Origin: Apostichopus japonicus | Taxonomy: Eukaryota > Echinodermata > Holothuroidea > Aspidochirotida > Stichopodidae | Direction: 5' to 3' | Assembly (NCBI RefSeq): GCF_037975245.1 | Contig: NC_092568.1 | Span: 3,288,001 to 3,352,000, forward strand | Length of the DNA: 64,000 bases | Part shown: positions 1-30,400 of the stretch, one piece after another | Layout: every line of letters starts with the position of its first letter | Position numbering within the stretch: the stretch's first letter is position 1 | Made by a program: the position numbers and the translations under genes | Notes under the pieces: generated by a model | What the model was told of the DNA's origin: nothing | The model's database searches: none | The model's input: the letters and a program-made list of their open reading frames with translations, nothing else

Positions 1-362
1 CACACTAACATGACTGTTATTGATAAGCACTCTATATCTCAAGTTAAACTTCAGATGTCATGCACTTGTTCTGGTTCCGTGACAGTTACAACAGGGGCTT
101 TTAACCCAAGTTTAAAGTTATCAGTATTGCCCAATATGCTAGAAAGTTAAAATATGGTCATTCATGTCGTAACTTCAGAAAGCATGTTACTGCCATCCCT
201 ATGGACCTACCATAACATTTTTTAGCAGAGGAAGCAACACTGACCATCTTTGGGCTACAACGTTCGATGGAGTACATTTGTTATGAGGGGATAGGTTAGT
301 ACGCAGCCACTATCAAGAATTAATAAGATACCACACAAATCAAAGAGTCATGACAGACTCAC

Positions 363-510: not shown

Positions 511-2301
511 CTGCAATTTAACAAAAGCAAATTATGCACATGTCTGAGTGATTCGACACCTCTTTACGACCCAGTCCTCTATGAATCTTACAGTAAATCA
601 TAGCACATAACGTGTACATTTTATCATCAGTTGCAAAAATGACAAGAAGTACGTTTCTGAAACAAATTTTCGAACATGTGTTTTGCATCTAGGTCTGAGT
701 TAACAATCTATTATTGTAATATGTTTTGTTTTCCTCAAAATTTTAAAAATAACACTAATATCATTTAAGTGCATTATTTATGCAAACTGCATTTATGGAG
801 CACAGCTCTCTACTTGGTTACCATGGATATTTGAATAAAACTTTATGTCCACCAACCATTAAATAGCAAACGATGTTTAGAATAAAATTGTTTTATGAAT
901 TTTTCTATCAATTTTTCCTACAAGCAAATGATACTGCATGCAGTACAGTAGAGGTGGATGGTAAACAAAACTAATTTGAATTTATTTTCGATATGGTAGC
1001 TCTTAGGTTGTTGTTATTTTATCTAACTGTGACATGACTGACTTCCAAGGCTGACAGTTTAATTTCTTCCCTATATAAAATTATCCAATTGAAAAAGAGA
1101 ATTATCACTGCTTGGGTAAGCACAGGAAATTAACTTCAACCTTGGAAACCTCAGAATTTTGCACTTGTAAGTCAAAGTTGACATTTAGAATGGTCTGCTT
1201 ACTGTTCTATGCCGAACGTGTTGAGAACCAACAATATCAACTATAAAACAACTCTTGAGCATTAGAGAAGAAATTTTTGAAATAGTTACAGCTTTCTCTG
1301 ATTCACCAATTCAGTTATTTCTGGCAAAGCTTGTGAATGCTTGTACTCAAAACAAGGCTGCAATTGATGAAACATCTATGCCAGTGGCCGGGCTAATACT
1401 GTATCATCAATGGTAAACACATTGTAATGTCCAGTAATAATAGCTAAATGTACATCAAACTTCAAAGTATATGAAACTACAGTATCCAATTCCAGACATC
1501 CTATTGGCATCAGTTTCAAGTTTCCCAATATTCCAGTTTTTATTCTATTAACAAAGAACTTTCCTTCTCCATGTAAACTCTTTTATGTTCATTTATATCC
1601 ATTCCTTAGGTAATATTGTTGAATGTTTGTGACAATAAAGTCACTTTATGATGCAATTGAAGAGAGGAGAGGAAACTTGCCCATTATCTTTCCTCATACC
1701 TCTTCTCCTTAGAGGCTAACAATTAACTCTACTTCTCAATAACAGTCTGTTTTATCTACTTCCGGACCCAGACAAGACTGTAATTGTCACAGCTTCTCAA
1801 TATAGATAAGGCAACAATAAACGTGCAGTTTACCTACAAAACAGTAGTAAATAACAATGACACAAACACACTTAAAAGCTTTGTTCAGTTTACATGTTTA
1901 GAGAGTCTGTAACGACCATTCTTTAATACATACTGTACACTTGCCTGTCTATACTACAAGATGCCTCTTATCAAGTTTTATGACAAACAATTCACCATAT
2001 CCAAAGGCCGCCTCAACTTTGTTACAACTAGCGGAAAACATTTCCAAACCCTGTCCCTTTTTCTACCGCGCAGGAGTAGTCAAGTAGCCGATAAATTATC
2101 ATTCACCGTAAAATTGAGTAAGTAACATAAAACACCACAACTGTCTTTAAGAAACATGTGTTACATTCTGAAATGTATCTATTCAATATGGTATACGCAT
2201 GTACACAAACCATGCATAATTCTGTTCTATAGCAGGGAATAATAATACCACATAGCAAAATGCTATACAAAAAAGTTCATATTGCTAAACAAATCATATT
2301 T

Positions 2302-2536
2302 GGCGGAGTGTATAGCCTAGTGGTTAACGCCGGCGTCTCCCAGTCATGAGATCCCCGGTTCGATTCCCCGCCGACAGCAATGTGTGTCGTCTGGCAAGGG
2401 TGTTGTTCAATAACAACTTCCTGACATGGACGTTAAATGGATGTGTGCCGAGAGATTGGCTTCGGTCAGCTTGCGAGTCTACAAGCCTCCATGGCTTCTT
2501 TCGCGAGTTCCTGCTTGCGGGAAGATCACATATACA

Positions 2537-2566
<30 letters not shown>
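2302..2566 (+). mobile_element. tRNA-derived SINE with (CATA)n tail, copy 1
   Basis: The head (2302-2374) is tRNA-like: an A-box-like TAGCCTAGTGGTTAACGCC and a B-box GGTTCGATTCC with GGCGG...CCGCC ends. An unrelated body follows (about 2375-2528), then a (CATA)n tail to 2566. The body recurs at about 56691-56798, sharing CATGGACGTTAAAT, TTCGGTCAGCTTGCG and GAGTTCCTGCTTGC, again followed by (CATA)n. The combination of pol III promoter head, shared body and simple tail defines a SINE. The acceptor stem is imperfect, so this is not a working tRNA gene. Confidence 0.8.
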
Positions 2567-2567
<1 letters not shown>

Positions 2568-3354
2568 TGCAGTTTTGTACACAGAAACCGTAGTATATTT
2601 TAAGAGCCAAAATTTATTCTTGCATAGTACAGTACGTGGAATGTCCCGTACATCAAGGTTCTCATACAATCTCGTAAGGCTTTTCCATTTATTTATTTAT
2701 GTTTTTATTTTATTTTAGTGTCACTAGTTTTTCATACTCTGACATTCAAAGTTTTCTACCTTGTGTGAACTGTGCCATTATCATCTACACAAAACAAACA
2801 AACAGACATTTCCATGGGAACATACTAATTCAAACAAACCGAATTATACGGTACTACAAAACAGAAGAAGAATCATTGTTTTCCTAACACTACTACATAC
2901 AAACCAAATCAGTTAAAACTGGCATTACAAGCTCAAAAGGTGAACCGCACTTCACGTACTATATTACAGGTAGTCTTCTCTGTATATGGCTCAACCACAA
3001 GGAATATAGCCTAACAATACCTCCTGTTGTTATCAATACAACAGAAGACAGTCTCAATAGATTTAAACCTACACACATTGTTTGTTCTTTTGTTAAACAC
3101 TAATGGAATGTAAAATGACACTTCTTTTGACCATTACTCACTACTACAGTACAGTAAAAGTAACTTTCTTAGTATTGAGATAACGCTAGACTTTGCAAAG
3201 AATGGTTTACTACAATAACATATATTCCAAACAGTCACCTCCGGAATACATTATACCAAATTATTGGCGACATTCAGTCCAGATAGAGTATTGGACTTAC
3301 AGTAGTAATTCCTTGGTTGGAATCACCATCAGGACTAAAGTGATAAAAGTGTAT

Positions 3355-3715
3355 TTTGATCTCTTCAAAATTTGTTAATACAATCCTGGTAATATATCTG
3401 TTCATGAGTTTGTAACATAATACACAGGGAGCAAAATGAGTAGCCTTGACGAAACATGTGTTTTGTTCCTTCAAATTTGTTCATAACCTCCTCTGTCATT
3501 TCTTTTTCATTATTTGTTCACATACAGTAAATACAGTGTTAAGAAATATAGCAAGTAAAATGTGTATCCCCTGGCCAAAAGTGTTGTTTGCTCCTTCAAA
3601 ATTGTTAATAACATCCTGGTCATTTTTCCTCTTCATGATTTAATAACATAATACAATTTTAAGAAACACAGGAAGCAAAATGAGTAGCCTTAAGCAAGGA
3701 TGTAGCAGAAGACCC
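3355..3715. repeat. Degenerate tandem repeat, about three units of 110-130 bp
   Basis: Three successive blocks share ttgttaataacatcctggt-like, ttcatgatttaataacataa-like and ggaagcaaaatgagtagcct-like segments in the same order, with many substitutions. An old local duplication with no coding character. Confidence 0.5.
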
Positions 3716-6548
3716 TTCTACTTTCAAAATAAAATAATTACTTAGACTGAAACGATTCACTTTTTCACTCTGCTTTCTCATTCTTCCATCTCTGAATTAA
3801 AGATCACATCAAAAGCGGGAGTAAACAGCATCATATCTTGAACAAGATCACTTCAGACATCCCCAAATACTTTTTAGAAATCTCTACCCCTCTGGTACCT
3901 TAACTACAACTCCATGGCTAATTTAAACATTTTGCAGTTTAAGTTATCCACGGGATAACAAACAAAGCAGTCCTATACTTACATGTGATTAATACACTAT
4001 TCACACTGCCAAAGATGTCCTGAAGGTATACTTAGGGGAGGGGAGGGGGAAATGTGGATCTATCTTCAAAGAAAAGTTTTATAGCATTCAATTTTCTTGT
4101 AGCAGTTTTGAAGGATCTGCAGTTTATCCCTCAGAAAATAATGTAGTTTCTGTGTAAAAAACACTGTTACATCTTAGGGCTTGTACAACAACTTGACCAT
4201 TTTGCATAGCATTTGCAATACCATAACCGATAAATTATAATAATTATAGTAATAATCTGAACTGGAGACTTCATAAAACAGATGAATTACAATAGATTCT
4301 ACAACCCTGCCCCATAGTACATGTGATTATACAGTATCTCTTGCAAGTATGGCAAATTGTTAACATATTTTAAGTAACTGTCTTAAGTAACTGATCCAAT
4401 TTGCAAACTTGTTGTGCAAAAGGAGAGATTTCTACTGTATATAAGCTATGGTTTCCACATAAAGGAAGCAGATTTTTCACATACTATAGCTCAATACCCA
4501 GAAAGGGGCAAATCTCAACAATGTGTGCATATTAACTTAGCAAATATTGCACATAATATTATTTGAACACTCTTCCTTTGATAAAACAGAACAAAACCGT
4601 AACATAACAAAATGAAGCAAACAGGAACAAGTATGAAATTTTGATATGAAATTTATAAATGTTGATACTAATGTTTGTGTTTTTTAAGTTAAATAAGAAC
4701 TGAGCAGTAGTCAAAGGACAAGTGCTTGAATATATACATAACTGAACAAGCTTGGTACAGTACATTACCGTACTATTAAATGAAATGCTCATACTGGATC
4801 AGCAATCTCAGGTCATTCTACCCAAGCAATCTAGCCTCCAGAAATTAGCAATTGATGAAAAAATTCTCCAAATGTTTTCACCATTTCAAATGAGATTAAC
4901 TGTGATTAGCTAATTATTCCAGCATGGTCATACACTGGATATCATATATCCACATTCACAGCATCAATTTCAAATTTTGCCTTAGATTGAAATACAAAAC
5001 TATTTAGTCAAGCTAAATGACCCACATTACTACAAAAAAGTAGCCAGTACATTTCAGTCACCATCCAAATCACTTGTTTTGCTTATGAACTGACCAATTC
5101 CTGCATATCTTCTCACCACCTTGACTGCTCAATGTATATAAGACTATTAGAGTGATACTGTGATTTTGACAAAGATGATCTTTGAATCTTTCACAGTGTA
5201 TGCATATGGAAAAGTTTTAACCACAATCTGTGTGGTGTAATACCCCCAAAATGTTTACACATCGTACCCATAGACCAATGCCGAACACTGCAATGTCATT
5301 AACGTCTCCACTGTCAACCAGGGAGTACTAAAGCGTACAAATTTTGTACAGACATTTTGTACTTGCATGGCATTTCGGCCATTCTGCAAATCATTTTGCC
5401 ATACCTGGTAATTTATTCCCTATCAACACAACTTGACATTTGTTATCCACTGGGCTAAGTACATGGAAATGTCTCAGCTTGAATTTATGTAACTGCTCAA
5501 CCTTGCTTGTCACGACACACACAATAAGATAAAAGGATTTTGTGCAGCTGTTCAAAGCCTAATCCTACTTTCTTACAATGGATCAATTCATAATGTCAGA
5601 CTATCCAATTTCAAATTTCAGAGGTATTAACATTTTAACAATGCATTTAACTGGTTTCCTTTGAAAGGTTTTGTGAAACAATCTACACATTTCTTGCATT
5701 CTATTCAATTATGTAGAAACTGAAACATACTTGAACCCAATGAAATGAAAATCCATATTTGTCTCCATGTTCAGAGTATTTCTACCCAATTTTCAGCATG
5801 TATCAACAGGTGATGAAAAGCCATTGATCCAACATTAGTATTAATAGTCTGTCCCTTAAGCCTATACTGTATTAGAGGAAAGTCTACATAGGCTTAGGCC
5901 TTGTCTTTTCTCTGCTTTTCATTTGAATTTTTATCTTGCTGTTAGTAAAAGAATTATTTATAGTTAATTCAGTGGAATAGATTTCCCAGTTGTTCTCAAA
6001 GTCTGACGGCCCAAATTAATCAACATATGTAAAGTTAAGGAAATGTTATAAATCAATCATAATCTGTTTTGTTACAGTACATCGCAAGGAATTCGCTATG
6101 TACAGGCTTTTTCTTCCAACTTTGCTGTGATTTGAGTCAAAAAGTAATTGTAAATTGACATAAATGGTAGTGCGCTGTTAAACCAGTATCCCTAACCGAT
6201 AATTCAACTAACACGTAGCGTATCATAAGCCTATGAACAACTTACAAATACAATAGTGTAGGCCTAGGATACTTATTGTAACTAGGTGGCCTTATGTTTG
6301 GCTACAAGTTTCTAATTTAAACTAATACTTCCTACACTCCAACGTAGTTCTTTTATTTAAGACTAGTGTAGTTATGGTACACAGATGTTATCGTATCTTA
6401 GGCTGGATCACTATGTTCTATACTGACATGTATGTGCTAACTAGGACTACTATATAATCCTACAGTATTGCCTAACGTCTTATAGTAGCCTAACCTACAG
6501 TGCAACATGTCTGTGTGCATATCAAACCAAACGAGTAAAAATTCTTAC

Positions 6549-6572
6549 ATCATTCACGATGTCACCCGGCAT
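6549..6572 (-). CDS. ASPP: ASPP-family protein, probable coding exon 1
   Basis: On the minus strand an ATG at 6572-6570 opens MPGDIVND and runs into a donor GAT|gtaagaat at phase 0, matching the phase-0 acceptor of the exon at 363-510. The joined start would be [17 protein letters not shown]. Some vertebrate ASPP isoforms likewise carry a few residues before the conserved M-x-L-x-V. The 5'UTR should continue above 6572. No cDNA supports it, and translation could equally start at the ATG in the next exon, making this leader non-coding. Confidence 0.6.
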
Positions 6573-6902
6573 AATCCCTTCTTTTGACAAAGAGAATTCA
6601 CCACTTGTGAAATAATACGCGTATATATCCCAATCACGAAAAGATATACAGTTGAAATCTACTATTTATAAATGAGATAGTATTCAGTCTCTTCGGGTTG
6701 ATTTACGTCACTCTGTTATGGCTATTCATGTCTTCCTCTTCTGCTAGTTATAAAATGCCGTGTCCAGAAATATGAGCACACGTATCGATTCTTGTTAGAG
6801 GGGACGCTATGACAATACTGTTGATTTTGAGTATTGTGCAGTCAAACATACAGACTGGCCGACTAAATCAGGGTGGGAAATGAAATGGGGCACAACAATT
6901 TA

Positions 6903-7307
6903 AGGCCCGGTCACACTACAGCGATATTTTATCGAAATACGGTCCGATTTTTCCGATTTAAGGCCGAAGAGTGAGGTTTGTGGTAGTGAATGTAATGAAT
7001 GCAGTAGAATATTCGAATACCTACTTCAAATCTGAGGGGTTCTAGAACTGACTACATTCTGAAGTGACGTCACATCGAAAAGTGATAAAAATCGGAAGAG
7101 AAATCGGATAGCTAACCGATAAAAGGAAACGGAGTCAATATCAAAAGTTAGGAGAGGGCTATTCCACATCGGAATGGCTCAACAGATAGCAAATCAGGTC
7201 CTTTATCACTGTGGCTAGAAGACCCGAACGAAAAACTGTCTGTTTCGATTCCTCTGGGAAAATCGGATAGTATTCCGATAAAATATCGCTGTAGTGTGAC
7301 CGGGCCT
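6903..7307. mobile_element. Harbinger-like MITE with long terminal inverted repeats
   Basis: The left end AGGCCCGGTCACACTACAGC and the right end are perfect inverted copies over about 32 nt, and similarity continues inward imperfectly (ccgatttttcc against ggaaaatcgg). The 405-bp element is flanked on both sides by TTA (6900-6902 and 7308-7310), a 3-bp duplication of the PIF/Harbinger type. It has no coding capacity. Confidence 0.75.
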
Positions 7308-7886
7308 TTATAGATTGGTTATCTATCGGGTGGATAGGTTGCGGAATGGAAGAGAGCAGGGGAGGGGTCAAATTAATTGGGTGGGAGAGTTGAGTCGAGT
7401 TGTGGATTGGGTGAATCTATATAGATAGTCCCAACTCCCATGACATGAAACTTTATCGTATCTGGGACTTGGTAGAAGGAAGACGTGTTGTGGTGGTTTG
7501 AGTGTGGTTGGAGAATCACTTTGCATAAAGTTTACTCTCTGGCGAGAAGTGAAGGGCATGCTGTCCAGACTTTTCTCAACATTATTACCATCCTTAGTTT
7601 TCAGGATAAAATATATACAGATAGTGAATTGCTAGAACATGACTAAAAGTATCTGTCATTTATTTTATACATGATCGAACTCTATATGAAAAATAAAGTA
7701 TTGTCTATGGATAATTGATTTCATCTTCCATTTGCAAATTGGCTGACTGTATGAACGTATTTTTACAATTACATTCAAATGAAAGGGTAACTTTTTATCT
7801 AAACTTGCTACGACTGTGTAACATATATGAACTATTGCTAAATAAATGCATCGAACACTAATACAGTCGGTTAGCCTGGTGATTAG

Positions 7887-7941
7887 GAAGTGTGGCCTTC
7901 AAATTCCTTCTTTTTAATGAAGTGTGGCCTTCAAATTCCTT
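7887..7941. repeat. Short direct duplication, 32-bp period
   Basis: gaagtgtggccttcaaattc occurs at 7887 and again at 7919, giving a two-copy tandem upstream of POLH. Confidence 0.8.
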
Positions 7942-8864
7942 TTAAAAGACATGTTTGAGTAAATCCAAAATCCCTCGTATGTAGGCCTACCCATGAGAGA
8001 CAAACTCTTCCCCAATGACTGTGTAAAAAATTTGAAAGGCAAATGAAACCTTTCATGTATCTCTTAACATGACTTTCCCTAAATTATATACCATAAGCTT
8101 ATGTTTATTATATGACTTGGTGAAGGGATACTATACTGATGTATCGGACTTCATGGACATCAATGGTATTGGTTATATGTGGTCAGGTTAGCGACATATA
8201 AACATCCAGATACCTGCATTATTTAATTATAGGGGGCACCAATCCCACCGACTTGTAATTGACGGTAGTATATAACTAAACAATCGACCATGAGGGATTT
8301 CGTTTCATGGTTTTTGATTGCGGAAAGGATTACTGCAATATTTCGTGGATTTCAAGTCACATACATTACAAACTCGTATGAACTTTGGGTGACCTTAATG
8401 TAACTTTCTTGATCGTTGACTATTTTCCGTGGGTAATAGGTCCATGCTACTGCTTTTCCATGGGCTTTTATGTTCAGGACTAAGCTAGCTAGGCCTAACT
8501 TAGGCTGGGGCCTAAGTTATGTGTTTGTGCAAGAGCAATTGCATCACAGTTGATCAACAATCTGCAGAGGTGCGACTTATGAAAAGTAAGTTATGATTAT
8601 GAAGTTGGGAGCAGACATATAAATACGCTATAGCCTACCTTAATTTTAATTCTCGATGGCTATCAGGCTATGTAACATGAGCAATGTGTGATGAGGACTA
8701 TAGTTATGATTTTATATTTTTAGTTCAACTCATTCCTGAATAACTGTTCTTACTTTTAGATTCTGTATCATAGTATAGTATAAAATCTGCAGCCTGCATG
8801 TGATTGTTTTGGAAGTTGAATCTCATTCAATATGTTTTCTTTTTTTCTCCAGTTTATGTTAACC

Positions 8865-8995
8865 ATGAGCTTGGATAGAGTGGTTGTGCTCATTGATATG
8901 GATTGTTTCTATGTTCAAGTAGAACAGCGAGACAAACCAGAATTGAAAGGGAAGCCATGTGCTGTGGTTCAGTACAAAACCTACAAAGGTGGAGG
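8865..8995 (+). CDS. POLH: POLH exon with start codon (residues 1-44)
   Basis: The start lies 12 nt inside an exon whose acceptor (ctccag) ends at 8852. ATG at 8865 has A at -3 region context accATGa; the in-frame ATG at 8856 is weaker. Encodes the first metal-binding aspartate and ends KGGG at a GG|gtaagt donor (phase 2). Confidence 0.9.
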
Positions 8996-11900
8996 GTAAG
9001 TAGGCTAAAGTAAGTCAGGGTCTAATAAAATTCCCCCCCCCCCCCCCTCCAAAAAAAAAAGGTGTCCTCAATATCATCCCCTATCTGCCAGCTTTACAAT
9101 GTATCTGTCTAATCAATAGTCCTGTAAGGAAAGCTTGTGGGTTTGTCTGGGAAGAATATCTTCCTATTTAAGGTACTGTATCCTTCTGTGCATATTTCTG
9201 TCATGATAGAGATGCTGTGCTCCATAGCAAATGTTGGCAAAGTTATATGTTCAGGTTGAACATGATTTCTCATATGCAAGTTGTATGTAGAAAGTAGGCC
9301 TAGCCTATGTCATAAACATATGTCAAACAAAGGACAAAGGACACTAGAAAAGCATAAATATTTTATAATGCTGGTGACCTTTAAAGAGTAAATTAACATA
9401 TATGTATATAAATATGGACAAATGAAATAAATGGACAAATACATTAGAGGAAGGAGGAGAAAAACTGAACTATGTTATTGAGATGAATTTGGTATTAGTG
9501 ATAATACATCTGCATAAACTTTTCTCAGAAAGTAAGATTTACTACTGTATAGTGAAACTTCCCAAGCATTATATCAGACTCGGTCTAAATGAAATATTGA
9601 ATGTGATGTATGCATGGTTTATCGACAGGACTATAGCAGTCAGTTATGAGGCCAGAGACCGTGGAGTAAAACGAGGCATGATGGGAGACGAGGCACAGAA
9701 GTTCTGTCCAGAAATCGAACTGGTCCGTGTCCCTGTTCAGAGGGACAAGGCAGATCTGACAAAGTAAGCAATCTAAACTTCTTAATGGCATCTTTTTGTT
9801 GTGAGTGTGTTAATACCAAATTATACAGATATTATGACTGGTAAATTAATTTAAACAGCAACTAGACTACATATTACAAACACTTTATAGTTAAAATAGA
9901 GAGATTATCAGGTTTCAAGAATGTATTTAGTTATTCTGACATAATCACAGACTTAAAGCAATTGGCGTGTGTGGTAGGAAGAAGGACAGTTGATGTGTGT
10001 GTGTGCAAAGGGGCAAAGAGGTGGAAGGGGATGGAAGGGATTAGTTGGCAAACTATGCTAAATCTCTCAAATTTGGTGTAAATTTTGTCCTTAATGAACA
10101 TCCAAGAAACAATCTTTGTGGCCTCGGACAGCATTCACCCTAAAGTTGCTTATAAGTGGAAGTGTTTACACCGATGTGTTGAACTCTTTGAATGGTCCAA
10201 TCAGATACAGGGAGGCTGGAGCAGAAGTCATCAACGTTCTGATGCAGTTTAGCAAGAAGGTTGAACGTGCCAGCATCGATGAGGCTTTCATTGATCTGAC
10301 AGACGAAGTTGAGGCTCGCCTCTCACAGATGGGAGAGCATCCCATCTCGCTGGAGATGTTACCATATACTCATGTAGCAGGATGGCAAGATGAAAAATCT
10401 GCTCAAGATGATGAAAGAGAAGAAGAATGTGAAGGAAAAAAAAGGCCTCCAATATCAAAGGAAGGTAATGTAAAATACATCAAACTTTCAGTTTTAGAGT
10501 CTGCCAAATCAAAAGTGCCAATTGCTGTGTATTTATTTTACTCCTTGATTAAATCAAGGTTACTTGGTTAGCATGCTTCTTCTCTCTGTCGAGGGTGCAT
10601 GCATATCTTTAAGATGATTACATCAACGTGAACACTAAGACACAGTAATCATCTTTAATATCTAATTGTGAGGAAACATGGATGTTTTTGTCCGTCTTGG
10701 TTTCTCTGTTAAGGCTGTTTCATTATTTACCTTTCTTTGCTAGTTTCTCTAATGTCTGTCTCCATCTTGCTTGCTAGTTTCTGTCTCAGTCATTTTGTCC
10801 TTTCTGTCTGTTTGTCTTCATCTCTATCTGTCTGTCTGTTCCTCTAGTGTCTGGACTCTTGAATGCCCAGTGTTACTTAACGGTGGTTCTCAATAATTCA
10901 CTCTGAGCAATGTTTGAACTATTGGTGACTCTTTTGAAAGAGATAGTGGCAGTATTTTGCAGTCAGTGAGATGGCAGACATTATCTGAAATCGTTTCATT
11001 GACAGGTTCTTTGAGTCACTAGTTTTGAAAACTTCTTTCAGTTGAAATTCTGTGGTGCTTTTTGCAGCTGTTTCTATGTATACAGAGTTCTACTGCCAAT
11101 GCGTTGACAGTAGCAGCCAGGTGTCAACATAATAAGAGGCAAATGATATGTCTCGCCGTGGGTAAACTCCATGGAGGTAATTCCCAAATCATCAGAGTTT
11201 AAATTGTCTCTACTATCAGCAAATTAAATTTAAAATTAAATATCCACAGATATGAGGAAGGATCAACTGCATCAGTGGCTTGGCAGCTTGAGCAAAATTG
11301 AAGACAAACGTTTAGCGGTGGGAGCGGTCATTACAGAAGAAATGAGGGCAGCAGTGCTGCAGCAAACCAAGTTCAACTGTTCAGCTGGCATCGCACATAA
11401 TAAGGTTCGTCTGCTCGATGCATGATCTTGCTTCCATGATATTGGAAGGACTAGAGGTTAAAGCCAGCTGCATACTGCCAGACTGAATCATGGATTGTCA
11501 GATGGATTGCCTGCGATTATGCAAATGTAATCAACAACAGGGAAGTAAATTTGCATATTACCCAAACGAGCACCGGTCATAAGGTATTCAGCATGCTGTC
11601 GTGAGTCATACATAGTGTGGGGATCAGTGGTAGGACTATGAGTCTTGACAACTATGGAATATCAGGTCAAGCTGAATTGTGTATTCTACAGTCCGGCAGT
11701 ATGTGGCTGGGTTTACAAATGCATGAATAAAAAATAAAAATTAATGTTTCTCTCTCACTTCATTGACCATAATCTCATGATATCATTTCTCATTTGAAAT
11801 TACATTGTTTTTACTAATAAATTTGTTCTTGTTATGATAACTAATTATGTGAATATGATTCCAAGTGCTTGGAAATTTCAATGATACTGTCCTACTGAAA

Positions 11901-14900
11901 GTAGTTTTTTATTTTTTTATTTTCAACATAACATTTCCACCAGGCAAGTAACATGAGCACAAAGTGGTTTTGTTGGCTTTTTGCTATAGTGTCACAATAG
12001 ATTTAGAATACCACATGACAGTAAGTTACCTTTAGTACAAGTACCAACATCAAGCTAAGACCTACCACACTTTTCATAGCAGATGTTTCTAAGCCTAGCC
12101 TACTTTACATAAAGGAGTCAGGTTTCATTAACAGCGAACTGCACCCTGTTGGGATCAGGATAAATGATAGTGTTGCTGTGGTAATATTGAATCGGTGGGA
12201 TGTACAACAATATCAGGTACAATAAGCAATGACACCGAAAATGAGCTGCAGTAACTAAATACAAATTGGATTGTAAAATATGACACTCTGAAAACCCTAA
12301 GTTCAATGTTATATCGACCTCAACCTGTTTAGTAGTCTTTTACGATGAGTATGCAGGAACTTAACAGGAAAGCATTCCATGTTTTTCATCATCTGCAGAT
12401 GTTGTCCAAGCTCGTGTGCGGTCTCAACAAACCAAGGAAACAGTCTGTCCTTCCTCATGACTTTGTTAATGTCCTGTTTAGGGATCTACCTATTGTTAAA
12501 GTGTAAGTCCCTTGGATACAATATGGCATTTAAGCTACATTCTGAATTCCATTGTATACACATGTATACCAAAATGATAACTTTCCTAATTTTGCCTAAA
12601 TCATCACTTTCAGTTTTGACATGTTCCTACAATCACATTTTTATCACTAGCTACAGTATGTTTTGCCACAGATGTTAGCACTTTTCCTATTCCCATCTAC
12701 ATGCAATAGGCCTAAATACTGTCCCATGGATAATGGGTATCAGTCATTTTTGCATAGTCGCCATCCTACACATGAAATGTATAGCTCATACAGATACTGG
12801 CTCGTAGTCTACCCTCTTTGATCTCTTAGCCTATTTGATATAATAGTATAGAAACTTGATGTGCATATGAAGAAACAATCTGCAAAATGTCTGTGATTTT
12901 CATTTCTCAGAAAAGGAGATCAAGAGGGGGACTGTTATACCCCCTCCACCCCCACGACCCCCTCCACCCTAACGACCCCCTCCACCCCAACGACCTTGTT
13001 GGCTGGCTCTATAATCTGTCACTGGGATGAAGTTAAGACTTAGTAATTGGTAAATATTTTTCGAATAAGTTGTTAGAAGAGCAGATTTAAACTAATTTTG
13101 GACTCTCCTTTTACTAGTCGTGGTCTTGGAGGTAAACTCGGTGCCTCCGTTGCTGAGGGTCTGAATGCTGTCAATATGGGAGACCTCTTGCAATACTCTG
13201 AAGCTGAACTACAGGCAAAAGTTGGACCAAAATCAGGGTAAGAACATTTTGAAAGACAGAAGCATCCAAGCCAGGTTTGTGAGAAAAAGCCTGATTAAAG
13301 CCTGATCACTCCATTACAATAACAACTCCACCATTGAATATTAAATGCAATTACATTATGCCTAGCTTAATCTGCAGTTGACATTGTATAGACTTATGTT
13401 AGGCTATTCTTCCACTTATCAGACAGAAGTAAAGTGACCTTATTCTTCATGCTATGCAGCTGTTGTGACACTTATACAATAAAATAATTTCATCATCAGT
13501 ATTTGGTGATAAATCTGGTGATAAATCTTTTCAAGTTATTGGTCCCCGTCTCTGGAACCAGCTGCCTGTGGGTATTCGTGTGGCGGTTTCCGTCTCGGTC
13601 TTCAAAGGTCCCATGAAATTTTACATATTTATTTACTGAGCAGTAATGTTTGTATTTTTTTGCTTGTGTTTAGGATTGGTGTTTGTTTTAATTGTGTAGT
13701 TTATATTTGTTTCTGTAAAGCGCTGTGATCTTTTGTAGAGCGCTCTCTCAAATACATAGTAATAGTTATAATAATAATAATATTTTGGTTTCATCATCAG
13801 TATTTGGTTTTATCATCATTAGTTTGGTTTCACCATCTGTACTTGGTGTTTACCATCAGTGTGTGATATCATCAATAGTTTGGTTTTTATCATCAGTATT
13901 TGGTTTTTATCTTCAGTGTTTGGTTTTTATCATGAGTGTTTGGTTTTACCATCAGTATTTGGTTTCTATCATCAGTGTGTGATATAATAATTAGTTTGGT
14001 TTCATCATCAGTATTTGGTTTTTAACTTCAGTGTTTGGTTTTATCATCAGTGTTTGGTTTTTATCATCAGTGTTTGGTTTCATCATTAGTATTTGGTTGT
14101 TATCATCAGTGGTTGATATCATCATTAGTTTGGTTTCATCATCAGTATTTGGTTTTTATCTTCAGAGGAAGGGGACTCAGAGGGGTGCATGTCCTTCTTC
14201 TAAGAAATCAAAGTCTGATCCAAGTAACCAAACCAAACTTCACTCCTTCTTTAGTCAAAAATAAATATCGTAGCAAATGTGGGAGTGCTTTTCTACTTAC
14301 GTTTAAATTAAATTAATGAAGTAAGAAAGCAGGATTGCTTGAAAACCTCCGGCCAGCTTACCTCACAGGTGAAGGGGGGGAGGCACAATGTCTCAGGGAG
14401 GGCAAGTTTTATTCGTATGTAAGATAGTAGTTGATTAGAAAACATATTTTGTAAATAGGGAAAGGGAGGTTGCCATGCTATGGTAGGTGGTTGGCAGCCA
14501 ATTTCAAGGGCAAGTGGGAAACAGTTATGGAGGTGCCAGGGAGGTTAGACCTTATGAAGCTGTGTGCAAACATTTTATATATGTGTTTGTCCATTAAACA
14601 AGCTATTTATGAAGATTTGTTTATATATTTGCAGAACATACTGAAATTAATACATCTGAATGTTTAATAAAACTATCTTGGTGGAGGATTTAAGATTTAA
14701 TGCTGCCCTCTGTGGAGCCATAAGAACAAAATGATGAAAGTTAATAGACCCTTTCATATGTAATAAGATTTTGATATCAAATATAACAATTTTGTTTTCT
14801 GTTGCCCTTCAAGTTCAAATGGAAAAGATAGTATTCAACATTCTTTCTGACAGAATAATTAACTATGCTATGAGATGGGCATTTAATATATGCAAATATT

Positions 14901-17900
14901 ATATTTGTAGAAATTAAAGTTTTACTACTTAAGGGGGGAATACCAATACATACTTCTTCTGAATGAAGTTGCAACTAGTATGTGCAATATATATTCTACA
15001 GATGTTACTTTGAAATACATTTATCTTTCTTTGGTAAAACTATTTTGGACGTCAGTCTTTGGAAGAAATGTAATGTACACAATACCTCAGGAATCTATTT
15101 ATGAGAAATGAAAAGACAAAAGGCCTATCATGTTTGCTGCATTGTATGTTTTACAATAGTTCTGGGAAGATTGTGTGTGTGGGGGGGGGGGGGCTGGTGT
15201 GCCTATGTTATACACGGGAAGTTAAGTGACCAAAGAAGGTTGCAAACTAAGTAAGTGGTTTTATAAACTTTTCAATACAAATTTACTACCTCAATAATTG
15301 TGTACAATCCTTGTTTTTATTTGCAGTTTCAATGAATCATCTTAGTATTTAAATCCCATCCCTGTACCACTATTCCATTGCTTAATGTAATAATCTTATT
15401 AATATTGTTAATAATCACAATGAATGTATTCACAGAAGCTTGGATATATTAGGTATAAATTAAAGTTTTTTGTAACAGGGCTCAAATCAAGGATTGAGAG
15501 GGCAAAGCAATTTTTTTTAGTGCAAGTTAGAATTTGTCTTGGACTTTCACTTAAATGGCGGGTCACTACAGAAATTTTGCATCATTCAAATAGGCACGAG
15601 GCTATTTTCCAAAGTTTTGAATGGGCACCGAGGCAATTTTCATAAGTTTTAATGGGCACTGAGGCAGTTTCAGTAAAAGTGGAGAAAACAGGTACAGAAG
15701 TGACCATCGATTCATGAGATTGTTAGAAAAACCTTTAATTCCTTTTTTTCTGTAACAATATTGCGGGACAATTTCTGAGCCCTGACTTTGTTTGATTTTG
15801 TTTATTTGATTATGAAGGAGATGAGGGCACTTACGGTAACTAGATTAAAGGGACAGCAGTTGTTACCGTGGGTAAAGGATGATTTGGTTTCATCATCAGT
15901 ATTTGGTTTTTATCTTCAGTGTTTGGTTTTTATCATCATTAGTTTGGTTTCATCATCAGTATTTGGTGTTTACCATCAGTGTGTGATATCATAATTAGTT
16001 TGGTTTCATCATCAGTATTTGGTTTTTATCTTCAGTGTTTGGTTTTTATCATGAGTGTTTGGTTTTACCATCAATATTTGTTTTTTATCATCAGTGGTTG
16101 ATATCATCATTAGTTTGTTTCATCATCAGTATTTGTTTTTTATCATCAGTGCTTGGTTGTACAACATATGCAGAGGTTTTGAAAGTGAACCAGTCAGACC
16201 TCGTCAACTCCCCAAATCTGTTGGATGCAGCAAGAACTTCCTGGGTAGGAGCTGTCTGGATAAGGTTGAGAAGGTATGAAGACCAATATTAATTTAATAG
16301 GATAAGATATTAATTTAATAGGATAAGATTGGTCTTGTTGCTATTCAGTTATGTATTCATCTCATATTTGGGTGGATATATCTCTAAACAGATACTATAC
16401 TGACTAAGATGGTAAACAAGGGCATCTTGGAGTTACAAATGATATCCTTTTCCCCTTCAGTTCCTGAGATGATGTACATTATGTACATTTTATCTAATTT
16501 ACAATTACTGCCACTGGTTATTGGAAAAGGCATAAGTCCCATTCAGGAAGTCGATGAGGGAAATGTGTAATGCATTTTCATCCCTCTCATGCAAAACTCT
16601 GAACAAAGGATCCTCTCTAACTCCTACATTGCTGTCCACCTCTTTCCTTCTTTTGCTCGACAGTTTCAAGATGCAAGTGTCATCTGAATGTGTTTATCTT
16701 TCATCTGAACTCAAATAAGTTGTAATACTTATAAACATACTTGATGTTGGAATGTTTCAAAGATAATGTGTTGTATGTAACTCATTGTAATACATTTGCT
16801 GATGTGTCTTAATAAGCTTACTTGATATCAACATGTATCTAGTTATTTTGGAGCGTATTTCTTATGATTCTCATACAGTCACATAGGCTAACATTTTATT
16901 CAGTATCAGAATGCTCTGAGGCTACTGTAGTGCGCGTGTGTGTGTAAATACTCACATATTTCTGCAGTGTGTATATATCAGATAAGTTTGTATAAGTTTA
17001 TACATCTGACCTCACATAGAATAAACATATATGATATCAGAATGCATCTAGTACCTGTCGTGTGTGTGCATGCAAACGCCTGCCAATACACAATTGTTGC
17101 CATACTTTGTATACATCATATTCCACAAACCTTGTATAATTTTAGATATTTGACCTCACAGTTAGACTTTCTATTTTATAGGTCAGGTTCTGGCTCAGTC
17201 AGCTGTCAGAAGAAGTAGCCGAAAGATTACAAAAAGAGGAAACTCTGGTAAGTTTCAATTTCTCTTTAACTTTCCTTTCTTTCTGTGATTAATTTTCTGT
17301 ATTTCTTTTCCTTTGAGGTCTTAGACTTTTACATTTACTTTAAGCTAGAAATAAATTTCAGTCATATTTAGAACTTCGACATGCGAGGTTCAATCCGTTG
17401 CGGAATGTTATGTTATGATACAAGTCAGCTCCCCTGTAACTCATATCATACAACATGATACTTTAAGCTTCATTAAATATCATTATTAATGTTATACTTC
17501 AAATCATAATTTCTTCAACATTAATATTATAAAGATATAAATATGATCGTTATAACTAATTTCATATATTATTATATGATATATTATAATATAATGTTGT
17601 ATGGTTACACTTTACTGATAGACAGATTATCTTTACCAATGGCTGTACCTTTGTTTGATCTTAAAACCCTATTTTCTAATATTTCTGTTTAAGAAAATAT
17701 TGCTGCCACATCCTCCTCACATTATTTATGGTTTGTTTTTAGAATAACAGAGTGGCCAAGTCAATGTGCATATATGTTCGCCAACAAGGTAATTCACCTT
17801 CATCTGTGAGCCGATCCTGTGCCCTGCATGCCTATGATACTAATACACTCTCCAGAACGGCCATGTCTCTGATACAAGGGTTGAATCGTGCTGGAAGTCA

Positions 17901-19537
17901 CCAAGCAGCATGGTAATGTATAAGAACGGTATTTCAAGTTTAATAGACAGATTGATCGTAAATGAAACAAATAAATCCCTGTTATCTTCTATGGTAGAAA
18001 ATACCTCAGTACAGAGGGTGTTTAAGGACTCCTGATACACCAGTCAGGATTTAGTATAATTCATTGAAGTCATAGGATTCTGAACTATGAGACTGTACAA
18101 TAAATCCTGTAAGAAAGATTCCATTGTGTTTTCCACACTCTTACACACATGTGTTGTAATGTTCTATTAATATGAAAATAATATAAACTGTGTAGCAACT
18201 CCAGGGTCAAATTTAGCTTGTGGAGTGGAAGAAGAGGAGATTGGGAGGGAGGGGTGGAGGGAGTGGGGAGTTCAGAGGTTGGCGGATGCCATATGTGGGA
18301 AACCTTGATGTGGGCTTTGGCATAACCAGACTTAAAATAATTCGTAGGAAAACAAACCCAAACTCTCAAGCTGGACTAAATGTTGCATAATTTATAAACA
18401 ACAAAATGAAATCACCTTATTTTCATGATTGACTGCATTGTTCCATCTACAGATGGATTAATTATTGACTGTTATTGTTTTACATTGTGTGTTTTGTTTT
18501 ATTGCAGGTCCCCACCTATTATAAACCTTGGTCTATCTACTACAAAGTTTACAGATGTGCCACAGTATCGCGGAGACAATACCTCACTGGATAACTACTT
18601 CAGTATCCAGGGCGACGAGAAGCTTAAAGCAGAACCATCGAGTGCAGCCGGCGTGAAACCAACCAAGTCACAACATCAACTGGAAAACTTCTTTACAAGG
18701 AAAGAATCGGAAGGAAAGAAGAGAGAGGGAGAACAAAATATGACCTCAAACCAAAGTTCAAGCAAACAGGACCATATAGATGATGTTACACCAAATGGCA
18801 AGCTGGCACAGTACTTCACGAAATCACCAAATGTTAACAAGAAATGCATCAACGATGAAGACAGGACCTATGGAACATCTGAACATGGGAAACTGGAACC
18901 GAGAAATCATCACGGGGATGAATATGTTAAGGATGAAGGGCTCTGTGAAGAGAAGGTTTGGAATGGAGATAATGGTTGTGATAACTATGGTGATGAACTA
19001 GGACAAGATACTGTAGTTGATGAACCCACATACATGGCAGATGAACCCACGGGATCATCGAAAAGCTTCTTTAAAACTAAAGAAGCCGCTTTTCAAAACT
19101 CATCAGAGTTAAACCTTGTCAGTAACTCAAAAAACAAAGTTGAGAAGGAACTGGAAGAAGCTGAAATAAGTGATAATTCTTGTCTCTCCTTTCAAAATGC
19201 TCAGTCCAAAGATTTAGGAGGGGACGTGGAAAATCCACCTCAGTCCGATGAAACAGATTACGTGACTTGTGATCAGTGTCAAGATCAGATATCAGCTTGG
19301 GAACTACCAGAGCATTTAGACTTTCATGTTGCCATGGCAATCCAGGAGCAGGAGAATGGCGTCGGCATCTCCTCATCTTCATCCTCTCTCCTGGCTGCGG
19401 AGAGGAGGGGCAAACATGATAATACAAGAGCAGGAAAGAGGAAGGGGACTCAGAGGGGTGCATGTCCTTCTTCTAAGAAATCAAAGTCTGATCCAAGTAA
19501 CCAAACCAAACTTCACTCCTTCTTTAGTCAAAAATAA
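8865..19537 (+). CDS. POLH: DNA polymerase eta (Y-family translesion polymerase), complete gene, 10 coding exons
   Basis: Coding segments: 8865-8995, 9629-9763, 10205-10464, 11250-11404, 12399-12502, 13118-13237, 16150-16273, 17182-17247, 17743-17912, 18508-19537. All introns are GT-AG and the sum is 2295 nt, exactly 765 codons. The protein should insert bases opposite UV dimers at stalled forks. Visible features: catalytic D11 (LIDMDCF) and D114-E115 ([13 protein letters not shown]); Q36 and R59, matching human Q38 and R61; thumb ([11 protein letters not shown]); little finger ([15 protein letters not shown]); UBZ C676-x2-C679-x11-H691-x3-H695 with ubiquitin-contact D693; PIP boxes QHQLENFF (477-484) and C-terminal QTKLHSFF (754-761). 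Length is close to human (713 aa). An in-frame ATG at 8856 would add three residues. It converges on RasGRP and diverges from ASPP. Confidence 0.95.
9629..9763 (+). CDS. POLH: POLH exon 2 (residues 44-89)
   Basis: Acceptor cgacag|G, donor AA|gtaagc. Encodes [18 protein letters not shown], the fingers segment containing the arginine equivalent to human R61. Confidence 0.92.
10205..10464 (+). CDS. POLH: POLH exon 3 (residues 89-176), catalytic DE
   Basis: Acceptor aatcag|A, donor AG|gtaatg. Carries [13 protein letters not shown] with the D-E metal ligands. The 3' part ([12 protein letters not shown]) is a charged insertion where family members vary. An upstream in-frame ATG at 10116 is intronic. 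Confidence 0.92.
11250..11404 (+). CDS. POLH: POLH exon 4 (residues 176-227)
   Basis: Acceptor tccacag, donor AAG|gttcgt (weak beyond GT). Encodes [18 protein letters not shown] and CSAGIAHNK, the conserved palm end. Confidence 0.9.
12399..12502 (+). CDS. POLH: POLH exon 5 (residues 228-262)
   Basis: Acceptor atctgcag, donor GT|gtaagt. Encodes [20 protein letters not shown], the family's K-L-x-x-G-L-N-K-P block. Confidence 0.92.
13118..13237 (+). CDS. POLH: POLH exon 6 (residues 262-302), thumb
   Basis: Acceptor tttactag, donor GG|gtaaga (phase 2). Encodes [15 protein letters not shown], the helix-hairpin-helix thumb. The following intron contains the duplicated terminal block and the acceptor-derived minisatellite. 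Confidence 0.92.
13505..13790 (+). mobile_element. 3' end of a non-LTR (L2/CR1-like) retrotransposon
   Basis: The + strand encodes [18 protein letters not shown] then [11 protein letters not shown] and a stop. This is the C-terminal tail typical of invertebrate non-LTR reverse transcriptase ORFs (PRLWN-LP...FK..L). A 3'UTR with gtaaagcgctgtgatc and an (ATA)n tail ends near 13790. It is truncated at 5' and dead, and abuts the minisatellite. Confidence 0.75.
13791..14163 (+). repeat. Minisatellite of POLH exon 7 acceptor, left part
   Basis: About 17 degenerate units of roughly 20-21 bp with core tttttatcatcagtgtttgg. The core closely matches the real exon 7 acceptor and first exon bases (tttttatcatcag|TGCTTGGTTG at 16137-16159), so each unit resembles a 3' splice site. 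The array resumes at 15886 after an inserted block. Confidence 0.8.
14164..15885 (+). pseudogene. Intronic copy of the POLH terminal coding segment and 3'UTR
   Basis: This 1722-bp block repeats 19437-21161 in direct orientation. By eye the only difference is the poly-G run near 15181 (13 G) against 20454 (16 G). It contains the last 33 or so codons, including the PIP box and stop (14264), and the AATAAA at 14666. It sits inside the minisatellite in intron 6. The minisatellite's ttcag abuts it as a possible acceptor, but joining exon 6 (phase 2) there would read the copy out of the PIP-box frame. It is not a functional alternative end of the normal protein. Confidence 0.85.
15886..16149 (+). 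repeat. Minisatellite of POLH exon 7 acceptor, right part
   Basis: Continues the ~20-bp atcatcagt(a/g)tttggttt array and ends exactly at the functional exon 7 acceptor (tatcatcag, ending 16149). The last unit is the splice site in use. Confidence 0.8.
16150..16273 (+). CDS. POLH: POLH exon 7 (residues 302-343)
   Basis: Exon 6 GG joins T-GCT-TGG to give [11 protein letters not shown], aligning with human GSWLYAMCRG. Contains [17 protein letters not shown]. Donor AAG|gtatga. The boundary is supported by phase and homology although many similar CAG acceptors lie upstream. Confidence 0.9.
16285..16329. repeat. Two-copy 24-bp direct repeat
   Basis: attaatttaataggataaga occurs twice in tandem just inside intron 7. 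Confidence 0.8.
17182..17247 (+). CDS. POLH: POLH exon 8 (residues 344-365)
   Basis: Acceptor ttttatag, donor CTG|gtaagt, phase 0 both ends. Encodes [20 protein letters not shown], matching the little-finger helix W-x-L-x-x-L-x-x-E-L/V-x-x-R-L. Confidence 0.9.
17743..17912 (+). CDS. POLH: POLH exon 9 (residues 366-422)
   Basis: Acceptor gtttttag, donor TG|gtaatg. Encodes [16 protein letters not shown] and [10 protein letters not shown], equivalent to the human VSIRVQG...RCCALTRYD little-finger strands; the tryptophan codon is split at the donor. Confidence 0.9.
18508..19537 (+). CDS. POLH: POLH exon 10 (residues 422-764), regulatory tail
   Basis: Acceptor attgcag completes [15 protein letters not shown]. 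The tail is long, polar and probably disordered, with PIP-like motif QHQLENFF (477-484), FF clusters ([22 protein letters not shown]), a single UBZ (672-705), a basic segment and a C-terminal PIP box ending at K764. FF motifs of this kind bind PCNA or REV1 in vertebrate pol eta. Confidence 0.93.
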
Positions 19538-21161
19538 ATATCGTAGCAAATGTGGGAGTGCTTTTCTACTTACGTTTAAATTAAATTAATGAAGTAAGAA
19601 AGCAGGATTGCTTGAAAACCTCCGGCCAGCTTACCTCACAGGTGAAGGGGGGGAGGCACAATGTCTCAGGGAGGGCAAGTTTTATTCGTATGTAAGATAG
19701 TAGTTGATTAGAAAACATATTTTGTAAATAGGGAAAGGGAGGTTGCCATGCTATGGTAGGTGGTTGGCAGCCAATTTCAAGGGCAAGTGGGAAACAGTTA
19801 TGGAGGTGCCAGGGAGGTTAGACCTTATGAAGCTGTGTGCAAACATTTTATATATGTGTTTGTCCATTAAACAAGCTATTTATGAAGATTTGTTTATATA
19901 TTTGCAGAACATACTGAAATTAATACATCTGAATGTTTAATAAAACTATCTTGGTGGAGGATTTAAGATTTAATGCTGCCCTCTGTGGAGCCATAAGAAC
20001 AAAATGATGAAAGTTAATAGACCCTTTCATATGTAATAAGATTTTGATATCAAATATAACAATTTTGTTTTCTGTTGCCCTTCAAGTTCAAATGGAAAAG
20101 ATAGTATTCAACATTCTTTCTGACAGAATAATTAACTATGCTATGAGATGGGCATTTAATATATGCAAATATTATATTTGTAGAAATTAAAGTTTTACTA
20201 CTTAAGGGGGGAATACCAATACATACTTCTTCTGAATGAAGTTGCAACTAGTATGTGCAATATATATTCTACAGATGTTACTTTGAAATACATTTATCTT
20301 TCTTTGGTAAAACTATTTTGGACGTCAGTCTTTGGAAGAAATGTAATGTACACAATACCTCAGGAATCTATTTATGAGAAATGAAAAGACAAAAGGCCTA
20401 TCATGTTTGCTGCATTGTATGTTTTACAATAGTTCTGGGAAGATTGTGTGTGTGGGGGGGGGGGGGGGGCTGGTGTGCCTATGTTATACACGGGAAGTTA
20501 AGTGACCAAAGAAGGTTGCAAACTAAGTAAGTGGTTTTATAAACTTTTCAATACAAATTTACTACCTCAATAATTGTGTACAATCCTTGTTTTTATTTGC
20601 AGTTTCAATGAATCATCTTAGTATTTAAATCCCATCCCTGTACCACTATTCCATTGCTTAATGTAATAATCTTATTAATATTGTTAATAATCACAATGAA
20701 TGTATTCACAGAAGCTTGGATATATTAGGTATAAATTAAAGTTTTTTGTAACAGGGCTCAAATCAAGGATTGAGAGGGCAAAGCAATTTTTTTTAGTGCA
20801 AGTTAGAATTTGTCTTGGACTTTCACTTAAATGGCGGGTCACTACAGAAATTTTGCATCATTCAAATAGGCACGAGGCTATTTTCCAAAGTTTTGAATGG
20901 GCACCGAGGCAATTTTCATAAGTTTTAATGGGCACTGAGGCAGTTTCAGTAAAAGTGGAGAAAACAGGTACAGAAGTGACCATCGATTCATGAGATTGTT
21001 AGAAAAACCTTTAATTCCTTTTTTTCTGTAACAATATTGCGGGACAATTTCTGAGCCCTGACTTTGTTTGATTTTGTTTATTTGATTATGAAGGAGATGA
21101 GGGCACTTACGGTAACTAGATTAAAGGGACAGCAGTTGTTACCGTGGGTAAAGGATGATTT
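19437..21161 (+). repeat. POLH 3' end, source copy of the duplicated block
   Basis: Covers the last coding bases, the stop (19535-19537) and the 3'UTR. It is the probable donor of the intronic copy, because here the block is contiguous with the full exon 10. The sequence diverges from the copy at 21162. Confidence 0.85.
19939..19944 (+). terminator. Probable POLH polyadenylation signal AATAAA
   Basis: AATAAA lies about 400 nt after the stop in TTTAATAAAACTATC and is followed by GT-rich sequence. A second AATAAA overlaps the stop region (19533-19538) and is too early to be the main site. The same signal is duplicated at 14666-14671. Confidence 0.5.
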
Positions 21162-27499: not shown

Positions 27500-30400
27500 C
27501 TATTGAAACACACACACACATAAAAAAAAAGGGGGGGGAAAAAAACAAAACATTTTTACCTAGTATTGTGACTAATCTATCATAGACCGACCAGTGTTGT
27601 CCTGAAAGTTAGTATTAAGCCAATGTTTGTTTACTTCAGATTCTACGGTGAAGTTCTCATAGGTGAGTCTTGATGTTGTTCTACATTGCACAATCAACTG
27701 TACAACTTTTAAACTGACGAAATGTTACAATCCAGTATTGATAATCACTCCCCGCCACGCTCCTCCCCCCCCCCCACTAGGTAGGAAGACACAAAATATG
27801 TAACAGCACAGTACTTAAAGTATAAGACTGTAGTGAAAAGTGACAACTCATCAAAATCATTAAGATGATTTAGTTCTGAATAATTTATTATTTGTTTCTC
27901 ACTATATGTTGGTATGATTTGACTAGATACGCATATATACTTAATTCCATTTACTCCTGTTAAGGTTGGTACAGCAGCATCCCTCTGTTAATATGAAGCT
28001 ATACTGCTTAGTCTCACTTTCAGCCAAATTGAGATAATTCAATGAGGATTGTTTGTTGCAATATGTAGGGACTAGTAAAATACACAGATATTGGGAGTGC
28101 AGTTTGTTCATAACAACTCTCCAAATGTTTGAGAGCAATCAGGAATCTGCTGCAAAATATCAATTGACATCGGAAAGTAGCACGAGTATTATTGAACAAA
28201 AATGCAACGTAACTTACTACCGATAGTAGCGAATAGATAATAGAGAAACTAATAGTCCAGTGATAAAGTCCCGTCAATTAGGAGTGTATCATCATACCTG
28301 ATTGTCATTTAGTTTTTCCCAGACACCATTGGGAGTGTCATCACCTTGGTTACTCTTGAAGACACTGGAAGCGTCGCTCTCTGCGAGACTCGTCCTGTCG
28401 CCAAAGCTACTACCGTCCTCGCTGAGCTCACTCAGTCGTCTCCCGTTGCAGATGATACCTCCGTGCTCGCTCTCCTCTCGATCTGACGTCAGAGAAAGGC
28501 TCTTAGGAGACGAGGATGGGGAATGGCCATCCAGAGAATGGTTTCCGTTACAGAGGCCGAACGGATCGTGGAATGCGTTGATTTCCGGTCCGGGCGAGAC
28601 CAGTCCATGTTTTGGAGTGGAGTCCAGGGAATCTGTCTGTGTAGCCTGCTGTACCATATGTGCCTTCATAGATATTCTTCGCTTGTCCTCTAATGTTAAG
28701 ATAGTATTAGGAGTGTCTGTAGGTAAATGAAAAGGAAAAGAAAAAGAAAAAAAAAAAAAGATTGAATTTCAAAACTGTCCGGAAGGTGACCTTTAAACAT
28801 TTGAATATGGCTGAATTCTGATCAACTGATAGCTATTAAAGCTGTATTAAATCTGGTCACTAACTTTGTATGATTCCATTTTCAACAACATTTTCAAATA
28901 ATTTGTATATAAGTGACAGAAGGATAGAAGTAGATACATTTAGAAGTTTAAAACAAGTACATGTTTGCGATAAAACTATAAACAGTCTACGTGAAACAGT
29001 AAATTATATACAAAGAAAACATGAGGTCCCAAAATAAATATTTGCTTGCGGAGCCATCATTTCATTCAACTAACTTTGGCGGGCGAGCTTTCTCCGTGAT
29101 GGCCCCACGACTGTGGAACAATCTCATAGCCAAACAAGAGGCACCTATTTCTCCATCCAGTAAGACGGATCTCAAAAAAACAGTTAAAAACTATCCTTTT
29201 TGAGAAATATCACAGTTAGACCCTTTATATGGGAGCGCATTTGAACATTGCCTTGTGCTCTGGATACCTGCGCTATACAAAAAAACAGTTATTATTATTT
29301 TTAAAACATACAAACATACATAATGATCTTTGTGTATTTCCTACTCTGAGCACATCAGACATTTTGCCATTTGTTTTCCTATGACATCTACACTATTACA
29401 CTAAATGTTACTGTCTTGGCTAAACACTAAATTTTGGATAAAAAGCCGTTTACGAGCTCGCTTCCAAAACGTTAGTCTGGCTTACCTATGAATGTTTCCA
29501 TGGTTGCAGTTATATCTTTAGGTAACCCGTCCATGGTGTGCCGTCTCTGTAAACCGTTTGAGCCGCTGGTTTTCTTACTTCTGCATTCCATGACCACCCT
29601 GTCTTTGCAATGCTTGTGAGCGTTGATCCCACAGATCCGACATTTGACCCCCTGCTTGATCAAGCCCCATAACAGCCCGGTGCAATGGACGCAGAATGTA
29701 GGGCTTAAGTATGTGTGGACATGGAAACTGTGCTTGAAGCTGGCACTTAAGGCAAGGCTATGGGCTCTCACAAAGTACGTCTTCATTTCACATTTGCTGA
29801 TGACTCCATCTCTGCATGTGCATATTAAGAGAGCAACAAGAAAAAAACAAAACAATTATGACATCATTGATCAACAGGTTCTATGGGGGAACACACAAAC
29901 ACTTTGGTTGGAGCAAAGAGAACCAAAATGTCAGTACACCTAGATTGAACACTCTGCAGTGGAGGTTTGTAGGGGTGCTCAAGCATAGGGTGGTCTTACA
30001 GGATAGGTTGGTAGGGGTGCTCAAGCATAGGGTGGTCTTACAGGATAGGTTGGTAGGGGTGCTCAAGCAGTGGTCTGAAGGGGTAGGTTGGTAGGAGTGC
30101 TCAAGCATATGGTGGTCTTAAAGGATAGGTTGGTAGGGGTGCTCAAGCATAGGGTGGTCTTACAGGATAGGTTGGTAGGGGTGCTCAAGCATAGGGTGGT
30201 CTTACAGGATAGGTTATAGGGGTGCTCAAGCATAGGGTGGTCTTACAGGATAGGTTATAGGGGTGCTCAAGCATAGGGTGGTCTGAAGGGGTGGGTTGGT
30301 AGGGGTGCTGAAGCATAGGGTGGTCTGAAGGGGTAGGTTGGTAGGGGTGCTGAAGCATAGGGTGGTCTACAGGGTAGGTTGGTAGGGTGCTCAAGCATAG

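Follow-up and report, generated by a model that had tools for sequence, protein, structure and literature searches.

A mirage-like array of acceptor-bearing repeats at the intron 6/exon 7 boundary of a DNA polymerase eta gene

Intron 6 of a DNA polymerase eta (POLH) gene contains a degenerate minisatellite of about 20 bp, rich in TTTTTATCATCAG-type units, whose last copy is the exon 7 acceptor. We consider it probable that this array is a mirage, formed by tandem duplication over the intron 6/exon 7 boundary and tolerated since the last acceptor is the one that is used. The preliminary description of this region had already recognized a minisatellite of acceptor-like units in the intron, and this was confirmed with the probe TTTGGTTTTTATCATCAG, which at up to 3 mismatches matched 18 times in the window (the whole 64-kb stretch of DNA that was analysed), with 18 of 18 matches falling within 13783-16149 against an expectation of 0.21 from shuffled sequence.

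Gene and array structure

The window contains a complete POLH gene on the + strand, with 10 exons (8865-19537) that comprise 764 codons plus a stop. All nine introns are GT-AG and the open frame yields a protein of 764 amino acids, for which a PDB search returned solved DNA polymerase eta chains as the top-ranking hits (best E 1.6e-134). Pfam placed four domains in the protein, all above cut-offs: IMS (10-234), POLH-Rev1_HhH (257-311), IMS_C (323-439) and zf_UBZ (672-703). With the IMS, HhH thumb, IMS_C and UBZ finger regions all present, the predicted product is DNA polymerase eta. Both the exon model and the pol eta alignment place exon 6 at 13118-13237 (+ strand), ending in TCAGG and followed by the donor gtaagaac at 13238, and exon 7 at 16150-16273 (+ strand), with intron 6 at 13238-16149 between them. 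The exon 6/exon 7 junction lies at residue 302, inside the Pfam HhH/thumb match, and the protein across it aligns with the pol eta chain segment KNGSWLYAMCRG. Based on this protein alignment, the AG at 16149 is presumed to be the functional exon 7 acceptor.

Each full unit of the array contains a branch-like TTTAT or TTCAT and the acceptor core ATCATCAG, after which comes what is left of the initial exon bases. The preliminary description had treated the array as a single span, 13791-16149, ending exactly at the acceptor. Instead of one continuous array of 2.36 kb, there are two blocks on the + strand, split by a 1.72-kb copy of non-array sequence that had been missed: array A at 13784-14165, with 19 unit-end AGs, and array B at 15883-16158, with 12 decoy AGs and the functional one. 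Both were delimited by TRF, which carries array B past the acceptor and 9 nt into exon 7. Array B thus crosses 16149/16150, and it is the sole boundary-touching array among the seven TRF arrays checked within the gene. An outlying lone unit (about 13490-13507, + strand, AG at 13499) lies to the left of a LINE-like 3' tail at 13508-13783, which has a TAA-rich end and interrupts the array. We assign this tail tentatively to the LINE class; a Pfam match to it was absent at E 0.01.

In total, 32 unit-end AGs precede the acceptor at 16149 (1 at 13499, 19 in array A and 12 in array B), and the two blocks contain no AG dinucleotide other than these unit ends, of which A has 19 and B has 13 when the functional one is counted. 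With the functional site included, 31 of the 33 are YAG and 2 are GAG. The spacing between successive unit-end AGs (n = 30) is 20 nt in 12 cases, 19 nt in 8 and 17 nt in 4, with 16, 18, 22, 23, 37 and 39 nt occurring once each. A frame-keeping unit of 21 bp, as had been envisaged earlier, would require a spacing of 21 nt, which is found in none of the 30 intervals.

Origin of the units

The last unit (16130-16149, + strand), which the exon model and the unit comparison identify as the presumed functional acceptor, is identical at 20 of 20 positions to the unit at 16075-16094. Compared with 31 upstream unit ends (13499 left out), these last 20 intron nucleotides match at 14-20 positions in 22 cases and at 9-13 positions in the other 9, and they match the other eight POLH acceptors at 8-13 of 20. 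The exon 5 acceptor (12382-12398, tttttcatcatctgcag) resembles an array unit by eye, a likeness that may be due to chance; its ungapped score of 11/20 over the last 20 nt falls among the scores of 8-13 shown by the other acceptors of the gene, and it was rejected as a relative of the unit.

On the exon side, the opening 9-11 nt of exon 7 resemble the start of a unit. The first 11 nt (TGCTTGGTTGT) were scored against a profile built from the sequence that follows 31 unit ends (13499 included; 14165, after which the insert follows, left out), giving a LOD of 8.76. Outside the array region, none of the 3590 AG-preceded + strand sites in the window reached this value. Among synonymous spellings of the exon start, it was reached by 2 of 192, or by 6 of 480 when Ala or Ser was allowed. 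In addition, the block 13784-14040 in array A and the block 15902-16158, which crosses the intron/exon boundary, are 90.7% identical. Together these comparisons support a reading of the array as copies of the exon 7 acceptor, and uphold the earlier suggestion that the unit derives from this acceptor together with the first exon bases. As the W-L-Y encoded at the exon start agrees with solved pol eta chains, the exon is probably the older side and the units would be derived from it.

Three other accounts of the array were weighed against this one. It is improbable that an independent T-rich minisatellite grew up to the acceptor by chance, with an accidental likeness to the exon start. Such an account could draw on the shortness of the exonic part (9-11 nt), on the C at exon position 3, which is absent from 31 of 31 units, and on the 16 of 61310 + strand sites outside the array region that fit the unit profile equally well; it is opposed by the failure of every AG-preceded site, and of all but two synonymous spellings, to fit as well, by the identity of the functional acceptor's 20 nt with another unit, and by the duplicated 257-bp block that crosses the boundary. 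We likewise give little weight to a captured acceptor, in which an array from elsewhere overran the old acceptor and one of its units replaced it. That the last 20 nt equal an internal unit indicates that units can overwrite an acceptor, but the W-L-Y codons of the exon start agree with pol eta chains and yet fit the units, and the unit has no other copy in the window at 3 or fewer mismatches.

The third account, a selected regulatory device, appears least probable of all; here the decoy acceptors, or an array of sites for RNA-binding proteins (YCAY, U2AF), would tune the use of exon 7 or send the RNA to decay. YCAY does occur at 6.0 per 100 nt in array A (13784-14165) and 6.7 in array B (15883-16149), compared with 1.8 in the rest of the window (16300-64000), and nearly all decoys lead to stops or frameshifts. 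However, the YCAY density follows from the repetition of one unit, and lancelet mirages, in the portions of PMC3087553 and PMC3902484 drawn on here, are spliced normally. Duplication over the boundary followed by turnover is the most likely origin in our assessment, and replication slippage or unequal exchange may have multiplied the units. The LINE-like tail, and very recently the 1.72-kb copy, would have interrupted the array later.

A copy of the POLH 3' end within the array

The block that separates the two arrays (14164-15885, + strand) is a copy of 19437-21161 on the same strand. This source stretch includes roughly the final 100 nt of the last exon (stop at 19535-19537), the 3'UTR and the downstream flank, and the copied exon end carries the PIP-box-like tail. 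Over 1725 aligned columns there are 0 mismatches and one 3-nt gap in a G run, where the copy has three G fewer. A 31-bp tandem repeat of 2.6 copies is found in the POLH 3' flank (20865-20946) and again in its copy (15589-15670). A transposon origin of the block was rejected, as it equals the gene's own 3' end and no poly(A) tail was seen at the right join.

The ends of the insert share 2-3 bases with the array (AG on the left, TTT on the right), and identical 37-bp direct repeats flank it on the left (14129-14165) and on the right (15883-15919), both on the + strand. A third exact copy of the 37-mer begins at 15999, so that this sequence is not confined to the insert flanks. The order of units around the insert gives a further indication. 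Short units starting with TTTG are preceded by TTAG or ATAG in 7 of 7 places besides 15883, which is preceded by the insert, and of the five places where a unit ends in TTCAG, four continue with TGTTTGG and the remaining one is 14165, which adjoins the insert. When the array flanks are rejoined through a single 37-mer, both of these unit-order rules are satisfied. We interpret the block as inserted sequence bounded by a 37-bp target repeat, and the shared bases together with this repeat suggest that it was probably a templated insertion during break repair.

The near-perfect identity would fit a recent insert, homogenisation of the two copies, or an artefact of assembly. We think it rather unlikely that the insert (as opposed to the array) is such an artefact and that the array is continuous in the animal. 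The absence of mismatches in 1722 aligned bases, a source only about 3.5 kb downstream, the fact that tandem arrays assemble badly, and the mention, in a supplement legend of PMC3087553, of a mirage that had been wrongly assembled in a draft genome would all be in keeping with an error of assembly. On the other side, the difference of three G implies that one consensus was not simply pasted twice, and both the bases shared at the joins and the restoration of unit order by the 37-bp flank speak for a true insertion.

Consequences for splicing

The preliminary description had placed about two dozen decoy acceptors before a catalytic-core exon; many decoys are indeed predicted ahead of this polymerase-core exon, although their number is 32. 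It had also proposed that the frame could be kept with VFGFIIS-like repeats added to the protein, which is not what the decoys would generally produce. In array B, one of the 12 decoys (16113) is in frame and open, adding 12 residues, two (16015 and 16129) shift the frame but meet no stop through exon 7, and the remaining nine run into a stop. All 20 decoys upstream of array B meet a stop before exon 7, so that only 1 of 32 keeps the exon 7 frame open. Acceptor strength, a rough score based on human frequencies, is at least as high at 14165 and 16094 as at 16149, and 6 of the 32 decoys, these two included, are within 2 bits of it or above. Acceptor strength does not set 16149 apart from the decoys.

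From four decoys in array A (14011, 14050, 14089 and 14128), the reading frame initially coincides with that of the copied PIP-box-like tail, and the copied 3' end contains AATAAA at 14260 and 14666. The acceptor at 14165, which is joined directly to the copy, is out of frame with the copied tail, and 4 of 20 decoys in the tail frame is no excess over reading-frame chance. It is very unlikely, in our estimate, that splicing from exon 6 to 14011, 14050, 14089 or 14128 would give a truncated pol eta isoform whose PIP-box-like tail competes with the full enzyme for PCNA. If this were nevertheless true, the candidate isoform would be without the IMS_C and UBZ regions and would carry its own PIP-box-like tail via an array-coded linker, and intron 6 would offer dozens of usable acceptors ahead of a complete 3' end that the array had captured from the last exon of its own gene. 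A young self-copy of the POLH 3' end would in this way offer a route by which a repeat array could gain a terminal exon, and hence a candidate isoform.

With respect to how splicing may tolerate the array, the distance from the branch-like A to the following AGs is of interest. For 30 yTnAy A's in the arrays, the next AG is 7 nt away in 23 cases, 6 nt in 1, and 10, 12 and 27 nt in 2 each; for the 27 that have a second AG within 80 nt (the other three have none and were left out of this count), the second AG is 25-30 nt away in 23 and 46-47 nt away in 4. The 23 recurring branch-to-AG distances reflect a single feature of the unit and should not be counted as independent observations. In the part of PMC10655562 used here, an AG less than 12 nt from the branch point is described as less competitive, and AGs in human introns as depleted from BP+8 onward. 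A unit's branch-like A would then skip its own AG, at 7 nt, and serve the AG of the next unit, at about 27 nt, so that neighbouring units would form overlapping acceptor modules of which exon 7 selects the last. The last pair in this model, as placed from the sequence, would be the A at 16122 and the AG at 16149. We propose that the array is tolerated because the acceptor nearest the exon is the one used; for the most part it would be neutral ballast, and infrequent mis-splicing would give frameshifted or truncated products. Against the last-acceptor model, a scanning process that started at an upstream branch site would prefer the AGs lying upstream.

Comparison with known systems

Repeats of the kind to which the POLH array belongs are rare but have been described before, and the array adds a new case. 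In NAGNAG tandem acceptors, several acceptors 3 nt apart compete for one exon. Competing acceptors are common to both systems, but the POLH AGs come in dozens of copies, and their 30 spacings of 16-39 nt place the array outside this class.

The closest known system is the tandem duplication of an intron-exon boundary in lancelet genes, termed a "mirage" (PMC3087553, PMC3902484). As far as the consulted portions of these two papers extend, mirages are reported in Adh3, the globins BflGb6 and BflGb9, TnC and PGBD5 (PMC3902484 adding PGBD5 and citing TnC), their hosts are cephalochordates only, and regular splicing was left intact by RT-PCR (PMC3087553; restated in PMC3902484). The POLH array shares with them, as they are described there, a minisatellite-like tandem duplication over an intron-exon boundary in which AG splice signals are repeated, and its unit of about 20 bp falls within the 10-72 bp given for the Adh3 mirage (PMC3087553/PMC3902484). 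It spans the boundary, repeats the splice signal and contains exon sequence, albeit short (9-11 nt); the array accordingly has the structural features of mirages, as seen here in the sequence of one haplotype. A further trait of mirages is that their length is unstable between haplotypes. Unlike the lancelet mirages in the descriptions consulted, it contains 33 acceptor-like AGs at intervals of about 20 nt, its units take in very little exon sequence, and both a LINE-like tail and a copy of the POLH 3' end break it up. If the host is not a lancelet, mirages would extend beyond the hosts covered in those portions of PMC3087553 and PMC3902484.

In segmentally duplicated human genes, the internal tandem repeats at exon-intron boundaries (PMC2812944) are, in the sections used, also minisatellites at such a boundary that may change splicing; they came to light through differences in copy number between paralogs and are supported by transcripts, whereas the POLH array is known from sequence alone. 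The Rogers model, in which an intron is gained when proto-splice sites are duplicated in tandem (as cited in the part of PMC3087553 available), likewise involves tandem duplication of a splice site. Under that model the duplication would provide the two splice sites of the intron; Rogers-type gain was rejected for POLH, where the array does not extend to the donor at 13238, its units lying at least 252 nt away, and is only part of the intron. Searches of the open-licence literature by title and start of abstract found no such POLH case among articles on polymerase eta with an intronic minisatellite, and no such self-copy among those on terminal exons, partial gene duplication, intronic polyadenylation and tandem repeats. 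The earlier remark that no POLH case has been described therefore agrees with these searches, while the phenomenon itself is known from the lancelet mirages in the papers cited above. As a natural test case, the array allows one to ask how the spliceosome settles on a single acceptor out of 33 similar ones at a constant branch-to-AG register, in the gene of a DNA-repair polymerase.

Other features of the window

On the - strand, open reading frames at 29475-29855 and 40403-40774 encode a C1 domain and a partial RasGEF domain (Pfam). These are probably pieces of a RasGRP-like gene on the strand opposite POLH. Near the C1 exon, a 42-bp minisatellite of about 14 copies (29963-30535) contains a donor-like CTGTAAGACC in its - strand unit. 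A 51-bp minisatellite of about 24 copies with 94% matches (36552-37795) has long - strand open frames, and a dispersed element is found at 2424-2566 and 56694-56832 with 84.7% identity between the two places; an (ATAC)n run adjoins it or forms its end.
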